From Archangium sp. (GTDB lineage Bacteria > Myxococcota > Myxococcia > Myxococcales > Myxococcaceae): a DNA stretch of 64,000 nucleotides. Under the pieces are notes generated by a model, which was not told where the DNA came from, made no database searches, and saw only the letters and a list, made by a program, of their open reading frames with translations. Positions 37,759 to 43,855 of the stretch are shown piece after piece. A program made the translations under genes and the position numbers. Each line of letters begins with the position of its first letter. The stretch's first letter is position 1. The stretch spans positions 62,001 through 126,000 of the forward strand of contig JAUYRZ010000015.1 of assembly GCA_030695565.1 (NCBI GenBank), in the 5' to 3' direction.

Positions 37759-39699
37759 TCAGAGTTCGACCTGGGCGCCCAGCTCGACCACGCGGTTCGG
37801 CGGCAACCGGAAGTAGGCGGTGGCCGGCCTCGCGTTCTTCGACATCCAGCCGAACAGCGCCTTGCGCCATTGCGGCATGCCGCCGCGCGAGGTGGCCAGC
37901 AGCGTCTCGCGACCCAGGAAGTACGAGGTGTCCATCTCGCGCAGCTCCAGGCCCGCCTGCGCGAGCTTCTGCAGCAACACCGGGACCTCAGGCGTCTCCA
38001 TGAAACCGAAGTTCGCTCGCACGCGAAAGAAGCCGTTGCTCATGGGCGTCGCGGTGAGGCGCTCCGCGTCAGGCACGTGCGGCTCGTCGGCCGTCTGCAC
38101 GGTCAGCAGCACCACCCGCGCGTGAACCACCTTGTTGTGTTTGAAGTTGTGCAGCAGCGCAGGGGGCGTGCCGTCTGCGTTGCCGGTCATGAAGACCGCC
38201 GTGCCGGGCACTCTGACGACCCGGGTCTGCTCCAACGACTCGAGGAATGACTCGAGGGGCAGCGCACTCTCACGCAACCGATCCTCCAGGAGCGTGCGCC
38301 CGCGCCGCCACGTCTTCATGAGCGCGAAGATGGCGGCTGCCAGCAACATCGGGAACCAACCACCGTCGAAGAACTTCACCGCGTTCGCCGCGAGGAACGC
38401 GGCATCGATGACGATGAAGGTGCCAAACACCAGCAACGCCGCCGGCGCGCTCCAGCGCCACAGGTCGCGCGCCGTGAGGTACGCCAGCGCTGCCGTGATG
38501 ACCATCGTGCTGGCGACCGCGATTCCGTACGCAGCCGCCAGACTGCTCGAGGTGCGAAAGCTGAGCACCAGACCCAGCACGGCCACCAGCAGCGCCCAGT
38601 TCACGGCCGGCACGTAGATTTGGCCTATCTCCGTCGCAGAGGTGTGCACGATCTCGAGGCGCGGGCAGAAGCCGAGCTGCACCGCCTGTCGCGTCAGAGA
38701 AAAGGCGCCCGAGATGACGGCCTGCGAAGCGATGCACGCGGCTGCCGTGGAGAGCCCCACCAGCGGCAGCACGGCCCAGGACGGCGCCAGGAGGTAGAAC
38801 GGGTTCGTCACCGCCGAAGGGTCTCCGAGAATCAGCGCGCCCTGGCCGAAGTAGTTGAGCACCAGCGCCGGCAGCACGAGCGCGAACCACGCCAGCCGAA
38901 TCGGCTTCGCGCCGAAGTGGCCCATGTCGGCGTAGAGCGCCTCGCTGCCCGTCACCACCAGGAAGACCGCGCCCAGCACGAAGAAGCCTTGCCAACCATG
39001 CAGGAGAAAGAACTCCACCGCATAGACCGGGTTGAGCGCAGCCAGCACCGAGGGGTTCTGCGCGATGCCCCTCACACCCAGTAGAGAAAGGGTGAAGAAC
39101 CACAGCAGCGTGACCGGCCCGAAGATCGCCCCCACCGCGCCGGTGCCCTTGCGCTGAATGAGAAAGATCGCCACCAGGATGCCCAGCGAGATCGGCACGA
39201 TGAAGGGGTGAAACCGCGGCTGGTACACCGCGATGCCCTCGAGCGCGCTGAGCACCGAGATGGCCGGCGTGATGATGCCGTCGCCGTAGAGCAGCGCCGC
39301 CCCGAAGATGCCCAGGGCCAACACCGCCAACCGCAGCTTCGGCCCGCGCTTCGAGACCTTCTGAACCAGGGCCATCAACGCCAGAATGCCGCCCTCGCCG
39401 CGGTTGTCAGCCCGTAGGATCAACGCGAGGTACTTGAGCGTCACCACCACCACGAGCACCCAGAAAATGAGCGAAAGCACACCCAGAACGTTCGCCGGGG
39501 TGACCGGCAGCGGCGCGTGGCCGGTGAAACACTCGCGCATCGCGTAGAGCGGGCTGGTGCCGATGTCGCCGTAGACGACGCCCAGCGCGCCCAGCGACAT
39601 GGTGAGCAGGTAGCGGGTGGACGACTTGTCAGCGTCGGCCGAGTGGGAATGCGGAGGTTCGTCAGCGGGTGCGGCGTCTTGAGGCGCTTCAGCAGGCAT
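37759..39699 (-). CDS. kup: KUP-family potassium uptake transporter
   Basis: A 646-aa membrane protein. The family signature is at the first helix (GALGVVYGDIGTSPLYAMRE), with LRADNRGEGGILAL after helix 2. About twelve membrane helices follow, then a cytosolic C-terminal domain (about 490-646). Residues 1-27 are a soluble Pro/Ala/His-rich extension. KUP transporters take up K+ with protons. It is divergent from a small membrane protein and a kdpD/kdpE-like pair. The shared upstream region carries CATCAAG repeats typical of response-regulator sites, so regulation by that pair is likely (inference). Confidence 0.95.
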   Translation of the reverse strand: MPAEAPQDAAPADEPPHSHSADADKSSTRYLLTMSLGALGVVYGDIGTSPLYAMRECFTGHAPLPVTPANVLGVLSLIFWVLVVVVTLKYLALILRADNRGEGGILALMALVQKVSKRGPKLRLAVLALGIFGAALLYGDGIITPAISVLSALEGIAVYQPRFHPFIVPISLGILVAIFLIQRKGTGAVGAIFGPVTLLWFFTLSLLGVRGIAQNPSVLAALNPVYAVEFFLLHGWQGFFVLGAVFLVVTGSEALYADMGHFGAKPIRLAWFALVLPALVLNYFGQGALILGDPSAVTNPFYLLAPSWAVLPLVGLSTAAACIASQAVISGAFSLTRQAVQLGFCPRLEIVHTSATEIGQIYVPAVNWALLVAVLGLVLSFRTSSSLAAAYGIAVASTMVITAALAYLTARDLWRWSAPAALLVFGTFIVIDAAFLAANAVKFFDGGWFPMLLAAAIFALMKTWRRGRTLLEDRLRESALPLESFLESLEQTRVVRVPGTAVFMTGNADGTPPALLHNFKHNKVVHARVVLLTVQTADEPHVPDAERLTATPMSNGFFRVRANFGFMETPEVPVLLQKLAQAGLELREMDTSYFLGRETLLATSRGGMPQWRKALFGWMSKNARPATAYFRLPPNRVVELGAQVEL

Positions 39700-39721
39700 G
39701 CGGCGGGCGTAGTGATACCCG

Positions 39722-39771
39722 CATCAAGAGGACGTATGAACCCGGCTGCTCCACATCAAGGAAACATCAAG
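39722..39771. promoter_or_regulatory. CATCAAG direct repeats, putative KdpE-like operator
   Basis: CATCAAG occurs at 39722-39728, 39754-39760 and 39765-39771. The last two are a 7-base repeat with a 4-base spacer, the usual spacing for OmpR/PhoB-family regulators. The block lies 23-72 bases before the kup start and upstream of the kdpDE-like genes. Confidence 0.5.
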
Positions 39772-39789
39772 ACCGCGCCCTGAGGTCTT
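39769..39789. promoter_or_regulatory. inverted repeat AAGACC/GGTCTT next to the CATCAAG block
   Basis: AAGACC (39769-39774) and GGTCTT (39784-39789) are separated by nine bases. TTGATG follows directly, so CATCAAGACC is partly mirrored. It may extend the operator. Confidence 0.35.
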
Positions 39790-39850
39790 GTTGATGCGCG
39801 CGCGCCTTCATTTGAGAAAGCCTTGATTCGAGGCCCGGTACATCCCGCTG

Positions 39851-40093
39851 ATGTCCCAGGCGACCGCAGGCGTGCTCGAGCTCTACCTGGCCATCGAGGA
39901 GGCCCGCGCCGAGCGTTCCCGCCGCGTTCACCTCACCGCGCTGCTGTCGGCGCCCCTCTTCGTGGCCGTGTGGTGGCCGACGCTGCTGTCCGACGTGGGT
40001 CGCCGGGCGGTGCTCACCTTCTGGGCTTTCAGTGCGCTCTCGGCGTGCTGGGCCCTCGCGCTGGAATGGCGCCTGCGCTTGCGCAGCACATGA
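39851..40093 (+). CDS. small two-helix membrane protein
   Basis: An 80-aa protein. A short acidic/basic N-terminal helix (LAIEEARAERSRRVH) is followed by two hydrophobic segments (about 30-45 and 53-72) and a basic end. No family is recognised. It is the first gene before the kdpD-like kinase (25 bases between), so it may belong to the potassium signalling unit, for example as a sensor accessory. This is inferred from position. Confidence 0.6.
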   Translation: MSQATAGVLELYLAIEEARAERSRRVHLTALLSAPLFVAVWWPTLLSDVGRRAVLTFWAFSALSACWALALEWRLRLRST

Positions 40094-40118: not shown

Positions 40119-41183
40119 ATGCAAGTGCCCCGGAGTCTCATCGGCCGCAACGTGCTGCTGACGGTGGCGTTGATCGCGCTGGCCACGGCCATCGGCCACC
40201 TCGCGCGAGATCACTTCGCGGCGCCCGACTTCGTGATGCTCTACCTGCTGGTGGTCGTCGTCGCCGCGACCCGCTTCGGCCGCAAACCCGCGCTGCTCGC
40301 TTCGGGGCTGTCGGTGCTCGCCTACGACTTCTTCTTCGTCACGCCCAACTTCACCTTCGCCGTCGCCGATGAGCGGCACCTGCTCACCTTCGCCACGCTG
40401 TTCATCGTGAGCCTGTCCATCAGTGCGCTCGCGGAGACCGCACGTTCGTCGTCGCTCAAGGCCCAGACGGAAGAGATGCGCAGCTCGTTGTTGAGCGCGG
40501 TCTCGCACGATCTCCGCACGCCGCTGGCCGCCATCACGGGCGCGGCCACCACGCTCAAGGAGAACGCCGCCACCCTCGCTCCCGCGACCCGGGATGAGCT
40601 GATCGACGCCATCTGCGTGGAGGCCGAGCGGCTGGAGCGGCTGGTCGGCAACCTCCTCGACATGTCGCGGCTGCAGTCAGGCGTGCTCGAGGTGAAGCGC
40701 GAGTGGGTGCCGCTCGAAGAAGTGATCGGCGCCGCGCTGGGTTTCGTCGAAGGCGCGCTCGGAGCCCGGCCCATTCGCACCCGGCTGCCTGCCGACCTGC
40801 CGCTGATCCCGGTCGACCCCGTGCTGCTCGAGCAGGTGTTCCGCAACCTGCTCGACAACGTGGCCAAGTACACGCCCGCGGGGACCCCGGTGGAGCTCGC
40901 CGCGCGGGCCGTCGAAGGCGGCGTGGAGGTGGTGGTGGAAGACGAAGGCCCGGGCCTCGCACCGGGCACGGAGCAGAAGGTGTTCGAGAAGTTCTTTCGA
41001 GGGGCGCACCCCGGCACGCAGGGCGCGGGGCTGGGGCTCGCCATCTGCAAGGGCATCATCGACGCGCATGGGGGCACGCTGCGTGCGGGCACCTCGGCCC
41101 GAGGCGGAGCGCGCTTCACCCTGACGATCCCACTCGTCGGCGTGGCCCCTCAGGTTCCGCACGAAGTGGAGACAGCGACATGA
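40119..41183 (+). CDS. KdpD-like sensor histidine kinase lacking the N-terminal sensor half
   Basis: A 354-aa protein from ATG 40119. Residues 10-105 hold the four-helix DUF4118 membrane domain typical of KdpD (DFVMLYLLVVVVAATRFG, LAYDFFFVTPNFTF). The HisKA box follows with His130 (SAVSHDLRTPLAA) and the ATPase domain with NLLDN, EDEGPGL and GAGLGLAI. Full-length KdpD has about 400 additional N-terminal residues with the KdpD/UspA domains, all missing here, and no remnant is seen upstream. It should autophosphorylate and pass phosphate to the KdpE-like protein encoded next (ATGA overlap). No kdpFABC genes are present; the adjacent potassium gene is kup. Confidence 0.9.
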   Translation: MQVPRSLIGRNVLLTVALIALATAIGHLARDHFAAPDFVMLYLLVVVVAATRFGRKPALLASGLSVLAYDFFFVTPNFTFAVADERHLLTFATLFIVSLSISALAETARSSSLKAQTEEMRSSLLSAVSHDLRTPLAAITGAATTLKENAATLAPATRDELIDAICVEAERLERLVGNLLDMSRLQSGVLEVKREWVPLEEVIGAALGFVEGALGARPIRTRLPADLPLIPVDPVLLEQVFRNLLDNVAKYTPAGTPVELAARAVEGGVEVVVEDEGPGLAPGTEQKVFEKFFRGAHPGTQGAGLGLAICKGIIDAHGGTLRAGTSARGGARFTLTIPLVGVAPQVPHEVETAT

Positions 41184-41890
41184 GTTCGTCCGAGCCGACG
41201 GTGTTGCTGATCGACGACGAAGTGCAGATGCGGCGGTTTCTGCGCGCCTCCCTCAGCGCGAGCGGCTTCAAGCTGATCGAAGCGGGCACGGCCGCCGAGG
41301 GGCTCTCGTTGGCCGCCAGTCACAACCCCGAGCTGATCCTGCTCGACCTGGGGTTGCCTGATGAAGACGGGGTGAACGTGACGCGCACGCTCCGTGAGTG
41401 GACGCGCGTGCCCATCATCGTCATCTCGGCGCGCGGGCGGGAAGCGAGCAAGGTCGAGGCCCTCGATGCGGGCGCTGACGACTACCTCACCAAGCCCTTC
41501 GGCGTCAGCGAGCTGCTCGCGCGCATGCGGGTGGCGCTCCGGCACGCGGCGCACGCAGGGGGTGCACCCGAGCCGGTCTTCGAAGTCGGAGCCCTTCGCC
41601 TCGATCTCGCGCGACGCGAGGTCACGCTCAACGGCGAAGACGTGCACCTGACGCCGCTCGAATACCGGCTGTTGAGCCTGCTCGCCCAGCACGCAGGCAA
41701 GGTGCTCACCCACAGCCACATTCTCAAAGAGGTCTGGGGCCCGGGCCACGCGGCGCAGACGCACTACCTGCGGGTCTACATGGCTCAGCTGCGGCGCAAG
41801 CTGGAGCCCGATCCCGCGCGGCCCCGGCTGCTGATGACCGAGCCCGGCGTCGGCTACCGCCTGAAGGATGAACCGACCTCGAGACGCTGA
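41180..41890 (+). CDS. KdpE-like OmpR-family response regulator
   Basis: A 236-aa protein. The receiver has the acidic pair Asp12/Asp13, phosphoacceptor Asp56 (LILLDLGLP), a conserved Ser (IVISARG) and Lys in TKPFG. The C-terminal winged helix (about 125-230) has LTPLEYRLLSLLAQHAGKVLTH and TEPGVGYRL. Its start overlaps the kinase stop (ATGA, 41180-41183). OmpR-family proteins bind pairs of 7-base direct repeats, matching the CATCAAG block before kup. Likely target genes are therefore kup and its own operon (inference). Confidence 0.92.
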   Translation: MSSSEPTVLLIDDEVQMRRFLRASLSASGFKLIEAGTAAEGLSLAASHNPELILLDLGLPDEDGVNVTRTLREWTRVPIIVISARGREASKVEALDAGADDYLTKPFGVSELLARMRVALRHAAHAGGAPEPVFEVGALRLDLARREVTLNGEDVHLTPLEYRLLSLLAQHAGKVLTHSHILKEVWGPGHAAQTHYLRVYMAQLRRKLEPDPARPRLLMTEPGVGYRLKDEPTSRR

Positions 41891-41974: not shown

Positions 41975-43855
41975 ATGGCCGTACCGTTGAGCGATGCGTG
42001 GAGCGCGGTGGCGCTCGACTCCCTCGAGGATCCCATCAGCGTCTTCTCGCTCGAAGGGGTCTACGTCTCCATCAACGCCGCCGGCGAGACGCTGCTGGGG
42101 AAACGCGCGGCAGAGCTCGTCGGCCGCACGTACCTCGAGGTCTTTCCCGAGCTCGAAAGCCATCCGTTCCACGAGGTCTTCCGGCGCCTTTCGGCAGCGA
42201 AGACCGGCATCGAGCGGCTCGAGTTCTACTACCCGCCGATGGAGGTCTGGTCGAGCCAACGCATGCAAGCGGTCTCAGGCGTCATCGTCGTTGAGTGGCG
42301 CAACATCACCACCCTCAAACGCGCGGAGCAGGAGCAGGAACGAACCAGGTCATCGCTGGAGCGCGAGAAGGATCGGTACGCGGCGCTGGTGCGCGCCACC
42401 GGCCACATCGTGTGGACCAACACCTCAGAAGGAGAGATGTCAGGCGAGCAACCCGACTGGTGCGCGTTCACGGGGCAGACCCGCGACGAATGCGCAGGCT
42501 TCGGCTGGTCAAAGGCCGTGCACCCCGAAGACGCTCAACCCACCATCGACGCGTGGAAGAGGGCCGTCGAACGACGCACGACCTTCGAGTTCGAGCACCG
42601 GCTCCGCCGCGTCGATGGGCAATACCGGTGGTTCGCCATCCGCGCGGCGCCGATCATGCTCGCCGACGGCTCGGTGCGCGAGTGGGTCGGCTTGCACAGC
42701 GACATCGAGGAGCAGAAGCAGGCTGCCCAGAAGCTCGAAGAAGCACGCCTCGCTGCCGAAGCCGGAAATCGCACGAAAGACGAGTTCCTCGCGATGCTCG
42801 GTCACGAGCTGCGCAACCCCCTGGCGCCGATCACCACGGCCCTGCAGCTGATGCGGCTGCGCGGCGCCGGCATTCTCGAGCGCGAACGCGGCGTCATCGA
42901 GCGGCAGGTCAATCACCTCGTGCTGCTCGTCAACGACCTGCTCGACATCGCGCGCATCACCAGCGGCAAGGTCACCCTCACCCGGGAGCGGCTGGAGCTG
43001 GCAGACGTGATCGCCAAGGCGCTCGAGATCTCAGGCCCGTTGATCGACCAACGCCAGCAGCGCGTCTCGACCGAAGTGCCACGAGGGCTGATCATCGACG
43101 GCGACCCCCATCGCCTCGGGCAGATCTTCGCCAACATCCTCACCAACGCCGCGAAGTTCACGCCGCCGGGTGGCCGCATCGAGGTGCGGGGGGCGCGTGA
43201 AGGCAACGACACCGTGGTGCACGTCACCGACACCGGCGTGGGGATCGCAGCGCAGCTGCTCCCCCGGGTGTTCGACCGCTTCGTGCAAGGCCACCAGGAG
43301 ATCGACCGCGAGCGGGGCGGGTTGGGCCTGGGGCTGGCCATCGTGCGCCACCTGGTGACGATGCATGGAGGCCAGGTCTCCGTGTTCAGCCCGGGCACGG
43401 GCAAGGGCACCACCTTCACCGTTCGGCTGCCTGCCGCCGGGCCCGATGGCACGGCCGAGGAAGCGCCAGCCATCAACCCCGCCCCGCGTTCGACGGGAAG
43501 GCGGGTGTTGGTGGTCGACGACAACGAAGACGCCGCGGATCTCCTTGCCTACGCACTGCAAAATATCGGCTACCAGACGCGCACGGCCTACGACGGGGCC
43601 TCGGCGCTGCGAGTCGTCGACAGCTTCCGGCCCGACGTCGCCCTGCTCGACATCGGCTTGCCGGTGATGAACGGCTACGAGCTCGCCCAGAAGCTGCGAG
43701 CGCTGGTGGAGCTGCGGCCGCTGCGGCTGGTGGCCCTGACCGGCTACGGCCAGGACCGGGATCGCGACCGGGCGAGAGAGGCCGGCTTCGATGCGCACGT
43801 GGTCAAGCCCGTCGATCTCACGCAGCTGGCAGCGCTGCTCGACGAGAAGAAGTAG
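41975..43855 (+). CDS. hybrid PAS-PAS histidine kinase with receiver domain
   Basis: A 626-aa soluble protein. Two PAS-type sensor domains come first (about 10-115 and 135-245, the second with a PAC-like end, REWVGLHSDIEEQK). A HisKA domain carries His277 (AMLGHELRNPLAPI), followed by the ATPase domain with NILTNAAKF, DTGVGI and GGLGLGLAI. The C-terminal receiver (about 505-625) has VLVVDDNED, a phosphoacceptor Asp near 559 (ALLDIGLP) and KPVD. No membrane segment is present, so it senses a cytosolic signal. No DNA-binding partner is adjacent. It is downstream of the kdpDE-like pair by 84 bases but has its own start context. Confidence 0.93.
   Translation: MAVPLSDAWSAVALDSLEDPISVFSLEGVYVSINAAGETLLGKRAAELVGRTYLEVFPELESHPFHEVFRRLSAAKTGIERLEFYYPPMEVWSSQRMQAVSGVIVVEWRNITTLKRAEQEQERTRSSLEREKDRYAALVRATGHIVWTNTSEGEMSGEQPDWCAFTGQTRDECAGFGWSKAVHPEDAQPTIDAWKRAVERRTTFEFEHRLRRVDGQYRWFAIRAAPIMLADGSVREWVGLHSDIEEQKQAAQKLEEARLAAEAGNRTKDEFLAMLGHELRNPLAPITTALQLMRLRGAGILERERGVIERQVNHLVLLVNDLLDIARITSGKVTLTRERLELADVIAKALEISGPLIDQRQQRVSTEVPRGLIIDGDPHRLGQIFANILTNAAKFTPPGGRIEVRGAREGNDTVVHVTDTGVGIAAQLLPRVFDRFVQGHQEIDRERGGLGLGLAIVRHLVTMHGGQVSVFSPGTGKGTTFTVRLPAAGPDGTAEEAPAINPAPRSTGRRVLVVDDNEDAADLLAYALQNIGYQTRTAYDGASALRVVDSFRPDVALLDIGLPVMNGYELAQKLRALVELRPLRLVALTGYGQDRDRDRAREAGFDAHVVKPVDLTQLAALLDEKK

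Follow-up and report, generated by a model that had tools for sequence, protein, structure and literature searches.

Predicted KdpE-type tandem operators between kup and a KdpDE-like operon in an Archangium genome

Which protein reads the short CATCAAG repeats that lie between kup and a kdpD-like/kdpE-like gene pair in Archangium sp., and which genes do they serve? KdpDE, a textbook two-component system, takes its definition from its control of the Kdp pump. The window analyzed here (the whole stretch of 64 kb, taken from an 8.5-Mb genome, G000) carries such a pair beside a different transporter. A genome-wide search of G000 revealed no KdpA, kdpFABC thus being missing, and no KdpD sensor domain (PF02702), and the absence of kdpFABC noted in the initial annotation holds for the entire genome. 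Judging from sequence, the circuit that elsewhere governs the Kdp pump appears to drive another transporter here, with KdpE-type control attached to Kup, and the CATCAAG repeats are most likely part of operators read by the neighboring potassium-sensing regulator. The features of the locus are collected in Table 1.

Table 1. Genes and predicted regulatory features of the kup–regulator locus (positions in the 64-kb window).
Feature	Position	Strand	Basis
kup, K+ uptake permease, 646 aa	37759-39699	-	PF02705 5.7e-188; TIGR00794 above its cut-off
Probable kup -10, TACGCC, 10 bp past operator	39706-39711	-	predicted from TA position in aligned boxes
kup-facing tandem operator	39722-39771	-	half-sites; conservation before kup in G003, G004, G081
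kup operator half-sites CTTGATG; CTTGATG; TCATACG (degenerate); CTTGATG	39771-39765; 39760-39754; 39739-39733; 39728-39722	-	
Second tandem operator, facing regulator operon	39779-39828	+	top matrix match in window; homologous position in G004, G006
Second operator half-sites CCTGAGG; GTTGATG; TTTGAGA; CTTGATT	39779; 39790; 39811; 39822 (starts)	+	
Probable -10 of regulator operon, TACATC	39839-39844	+	predicted
80-aa ORF, two hydrophobic stretches, first gene of regulator operon	39851-40093	+	no Pfam/NCBIfam match
KdpD-like histidine kinase, 354 aa, DUF4118 + HisKA + HATPase_c	40119-41183	+	domain search
KdpE-like response regulator, 236 aa, ATG overlaps kinase stop	41180-41890	+	Response_reg + Trans_reg_C

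Repeats, operators and promoter anatomy

CATCAAG occurs at 39722-39728, 39754-39760 and 39765-39771, and the last two copies form an exact 7+4+7 pair (39754-39771) that reads CTTGATG-n4-CTTGATG on the minus strand. The initial annotation had recorded the three copies and the pair, and both were confirmed. It had also likened the spacing to that of OmpR/PhoB-family sites, which agrees with the geometry of the E. coli KdpE site: TTGATG n5 TTGATG at 39770-39754 (-) consists of TT-initial 6-bp half-sites with 5 bp between them. By itself the pair is weak evidence and only modestly unusual. It is the sole match in the 64 kb at up to 2 mismatches, with 0.23 matches expected and at least one match in 20 of 100 shuffles, and CATCAAG is frequent in the window (17 observed vs. 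4.6 expected). Both figures would suit chance or codon-driven repetition of a heptamer common in the genome. The pair is the first half of a larger element, in which the half-sites on the kup strand start at 0, 11, 32, and 43 bp and the lone CATCAAG at 39722 is the fourth.

A 66-bp matrix was built from 21 kdp and kimA boxes (elements of this four-half-site layout) of other genomes together with their -10 region, and seven kup and small-ORF boxes were deliberately excluded. On the 64 kb the matrix ranked 39779-39844 (+) first with 32.8 bits and 39706-39771 (-) second with 32.6 bits. The next-best score was 14.2, the kup box out of register, and the top score over 100 simulated 64-kb windows was 17.9 bits. 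The repeats go beyond chance because of this wider structure, the matrix-scored 66-bp element, and not because of the pair alone. With the two top ranks against the simulated maximum, and with the box conserved in relatives, chance repetition is scarcely credible. The region 39706-39851 is best explained as a divergent promoter region with two predicted back-to-back KdpE-type operators. The initial annotation was right in taking the repeats for an operator and in placing a KdpE-like gene next door, but it did not record the second operator, the layout of four half-sites or the small ORF separating the repeats from the kinase gene; the extent it gave, 39722-39789, ends in a cut through the second operator.

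Promoter anatomy was read from an alignment of 28 boxes. This alignment includes two 4-mismatch boxes from fetched loci (L068 7995 and L071 7529) and omits six fetched 3-mismatch matches without a K+ gene (L074, L085, L086, L087, L088, and L089) as well as the G092 match (L067, a kdpA locus without an adjoining KdpE). The consensus half-site is CTTGATG, present as four direct repeats that form two pairs, the second starting 32 bp after the first; since the boxes were chosen by a TTGANG pattern, the selection itself accounts for part of the conservation at those letters. The search pattern included neither the -10-like TA nor the distance to the start codon. A TA lies 10 or 11 bases past the last half-site in 20 of the 28 boxes, and an ATG lies 22–24 past the box in 15, including all four aligned kup boxes and all three small-ORF boxes. 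The kup ATG at 39699 and the small-ORF ATG at 39851 are each 22 bp past their operators. At E. coli kdp, a KdpE footprint spanning -72 to -50 relative to the start site has been reported (PMC3264566); with E. coli-like distances, the start site would fall at or beside the ATG, and the kup and small-ORF mRNAs are therefore probably leaderless. A sigma-70 consensus scan of the region found no promoter, which would be expected where a regulator substitutes for the -35 element.

Alternatively, the repeats might work at the RNA level, the kup leader forming a hairpin or riboswitch. Folding of an inverted repeat of the region is slightly more stable than that of shuffled sequences (z -2.29), and a single terminator-like site was detected. 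No Rfam family, however, reached its gathering score, and the only weak sub-threshold match was to a Caulobacter sRNA model. The conserved features are fixed-spacing direct repeats, which are found in single-box relatives too, and two genomes, G003 and G081, lack the second arm of the inverted repeat. Since the inverted repeat is a product of the junction between the two operators, an RNA element was rejected, and this explanation is considered highly improbable.

Regulator, kinase and small ORF

The KdpE-like protein has an OmpR/PhoB-family receiver (PF00072, 3.3e-26) and winged helix (PF00486, 8.6e-24). Its best NCBIfam model is KdpE, with 277 bits against an equivalog cut-off of 325. Three kdp-linked regulators of relatives are also under this cut-off (277.8, 258.7, and 276.5 bits), so that the NCBIfam cut-off excludes the whole lineage, and the protein is called KdpE-like. 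Its best solved-structure matches include KdpE 4kny. Numbered from that match, R198, R205, and T220 correspond to R193, R200, and T215, which have been reported as DNA-contact residues of E. coli KdpE (PMC3264566), and all 10 regulators that were aligned have them unchanged. The protein clusters with the kdp-linked KdpE of relatives: the four regulators linked to kup make up a single group (99/99) next to those linked to kdp and kimA in Myxococcota, and the branching that unites them all is weaker (87/94, drawn open). Because the genome has no KdpA, the protein does not activate kdpFABC here, and a KdpE-like action would be on another target.

The kinase lacks the KdpD sensor, Usp and GAF parts and scores below the NCBIfam KdpD cut-off. 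Without the N-terminal PF02702 sensor and Usp domain it was filed as KdpD-like, of the C-terminal type. The closest named relatives that carry it are metagenome-assembled genomes labeled Archangium sp. and Myxococcaceae. The KdpD sensor domain is often found in an open frame of about 390–460 aa, not in a full-length kinase, in many Myxococcota genomes, and NCBIfam has a model for a non-kinase KdpD-like sensor; in several genomes with such a stand-alone frame, neither a KdpE ortholog nor a low-mismatch box is present. Directly 3' of the KdpE-like gene, at 41975-43855, lies a PAS-HisKA-HATPase-receiver hybrid kinase, a homolog of which was found beside the system in neither G003 nor G006.

Relatives of the 80-aa ORF were found in two of 98 other genomes (G004 and G006), each behind a box. 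ORFs of 86–90 aa and similar make-up, with no evident similarity to the 80-aa ORF, open box-controlled operons in G057, G059, G084, and G090. A small ORF at the head of box-controlled operons is possibly a recurring accessory protein.

Boxes in other genomes and their link to KdpE and K+ importers

In G003, G004, and G081 the operator is again found before kup. G003 has kup and the kinase gene divergent, with CTTGATG-n4-CCTGATG between them, and in both G003 and G081 a single box, facing kup, lies between two divergent genes. G006 has kup downstream of the regulator gene and convergent with it, with one element before kup and another before the regulator operon; the kup element (locus L126) was missed by the matrix because its spacer, as read by eye, is 13 bp instead of 14 bp. 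The box before the small ORF is also found in G004 and G006. The initial annotation had proposed looking for the repeats in relatives with the same gene order, and they are kept there, as well as in G006 where kup has moved. No box of at least 8 bits was found at any of 17 loci of other Kup copies, including the second Kup of G000 (L122).

These layouts bear on whether the regulator might bind and repress kup, or might govern its own operon only, with kup constitutive as in E. coli. Kup of E. coli has been described as constitutive (PMC5458449, PMC5716572), and kup of Sinorhizobium fredii has been reported to fall at low K+ (PMC9239096). At the present locus, however, each gene is faced by a separate box at equal distance to a -10-like TA and an ATG, the sole box in G003 and G081 faces kup, and the arrangement matches that of kdp, a KdpE-activated operon (PMC3264566). 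Repression, or control of the regulator operon only, is thus regarded as unlikely, and activation of both genes is preferred.

A search of 99 genomes with TTGANG four times at the operator spacing, up to 3 mismatches being allowed, gave 41 places in 31 genomes, and a reversed control pattern gave 5 matches. Sixteen of the 17 places with at most 2 mismatches adjoin K+ import genes, and the 17th adjoins a BBP2 porin gene (G018). Among 14 of the 24 places with 3 mismatches that were examined, 8 adjoin K+ genes and 6, which were fetched, do not. A phylum search gave matches before kdpA in G152 and G189 and matches without a K+ gene in G187 and G191. The targets of the box across Myxococcota are kdpFABC, kup, the small-ORF operon and a KimA-type permease, for which the search gave just one solved relative, the K+ importer KimA (E 1.2e-57). 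Boxes stand before kdpFABC and KimA-type importers that have a KdpE ortholog as neighbor. Operons of BBP2 porin and kdp genes are also preceded by a box; the porin gene is first behind the box at L078 (4751-5959), L079, L081, and L084, and ahead of kdpA in L078, L079, and L084. The BBP2-type outer-membrane porin is a possible outer-membrane K+ port.

KdpE orthologs are present in 19 of the 99 genomes (at least 59% identity to the window protein, the next matches being at 43%). A box with at most 2 mismatches is found in 12 of these 19 vs. 1 of the 80 other genomes (Fisher 7e-10), and with at most 3 mismatches in 18 of 19 vs. 13 of 80 (Fisher 1e-10), both values being descriptive as the genomes are related. 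At least some of the 3-mismatch matches in the 13 KdpE-less genomes are background. The single KdpE-bearing genome without a box is G010, whose contig begins inside kdpA. The lone KdpE-less genome with a box of at most 2 mismatches is G055, where it precedes a kdpAB-kdpD stretch on a contig that ends inside kdpD.

Another OmpR/PhoB-family regulator could own the box, the neighboring KdpE-like protein not being its reader. Direct repeats of the 7+4+7 type are common to many OmpR/PhoB regulators, for example PhoP of M. tuberculosis (PMC4832192), and G004 (L076) keeps both boxes, kup and the small ORF with another gene and no kinase after the small ORF, no KdpE ortholog having been found in its genome. 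Either this assembly lacks KdpE, or KdpE was recently lost, or another protein reads the box; the G004 boxes are either orphan operators or the mark of an assembly gap. Against a different reader, a box is present in 18 of the 19 genomes with a KdpE ortholog, G010 being the lone miss, and it sits at kdp, kimA and kup loci alike, which makes such a reader quite improbable. The KdpE-like protein is the preferred reader, and the initial proposal of a KdpDE-type pair redirected to kup gains support from box conservation and from the linkage to K+ importers.

Proposed circuit and comparison with known KdpE systems

It is very probable, from the evidence of the sequences compared, that the phosphorylated KdpE-like regulator activates kup and its own operon via the two back-to-back operators. 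We infer binding, activation, the low-K+ signal and the start sites as follows. Low K+ would lead the short KdpD-like kinase to phosphorylate the KdpE-like regulator, and two dimers of the phosphorylated regulator would fill both pairs of each operator. The second pair would sit at the -35 position and stand in for the -35 element, with the -10-like hexamer after it, and RNA polymerase would be recruited. Expression of kup and of the regulator's own operon would thus be switched on, the latter as positive autoregulation. Counting against this model are the degenerate third half-site of the kup box, the G004 boxes without a KdpE found, the single box of G003 and G081, and the scores of the regulator and the kinase below the NCBIfam KdpE and KdpD cut-offs.

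Studies of other KdpE systems offer both likenesses and differences. The E. coli kdpFABC site, TTTATA n5 TTTACA, consists, like the window site, of two TT-initial 6-bp direct repeats 5 bp apart (PMC3264566); the half-sites in the window are TTGATG and the target is kup. In two reports, each promoter is described with one pair or one motif (PMC3264566; PMC5401905). The E. coli K-12 kdp promoter (L213 2320-2640) has TTTATA-n5-TTTACA, then 32 bp on TTTGCG-n5-TTTGCA, and then TACCCT at the -10 place, so that a second pair is readable at +32 and the -10-like hexamer is at the same distance as in the window. Deinococcus radiodurans has been reported to have a KdpD C-terminal-half kinase and a regulator divergent from K+ transporter genes, as in the window, and its regulator binds the intergenic DNA between kdpD-C/RR and kdpBAC (PMC5716572); D. 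radiodurans has Kdp as the transporter and also a KdpD N-terminal protein, whereas the window has Kup and its genome no KdpD N-terminal domain. The KdpE site of Mycobacterium smegmatis is likewise in the promoter of an inducible K+ transporter, but its motif is A-rich, 22 bp long and reported as unlike other KdpE sites, and KdpE reportedly did not bind its own kdpDE promoter (PMC5401905). KdpE of S. fredii, like the window regulator, regulates K+ uptake genes; it has been reported to bind the kdpFABC promoter and not the trkA or kup promoters, which counts against kup control (PMC9239096).

The tandem layout was followed further in 53 kdpA upstream regions of other phyla and Pseudomonadota, comprising 24 of 26 KdpA matches (two partial ones omitted) and 29 loci among the matches listed, 47 genomes having matched. 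Two TTnA pairs at a spacing of 32 were found at 11 or 12 of 12 letters in 14 of the 53 regions, whereas the other 43 spacings averaged 0.70 regions and reached 5 at most; related rows in this comparison are not independent. Many of the regions, including those of Paenibacillus, several Alphaproteobacteria-like genomes and Streptomyces, had no tandem. A tandem box of 22.6 bits lies before kdpA, divergent from kdpD, in a Chloroflexota metagenome-assembled genome (L148 5874-5939), far outside Myxococcota. A literature search, mostly outside subscription journals, found no published report of the tandem layout or of KdpE control of kup or kimA. The balance leans slightly toward the view that KdpE promoters generally, including E. 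coli kdp, consist of two tandem pairs 32 bp apart with the second over the -35 position, and that the Myxococcota form would be a cassette portable before Kdp, KimA or Kup, the importer being swapped and the circuit kept, with a kinase lacking the KdpD sensor domains in the Kup case.

The tandem layout predicts a second KdpE pair at E. coli kdp, at about -40 to -24. The short kinase is a natural test of KdpD K+ sensing without the N-terminal domains. Overall, a lineage with Kup, and elsewhere KimA, under a KdpE promoter module would be a case in which transporters are exchanged while the circuit above them is kept.
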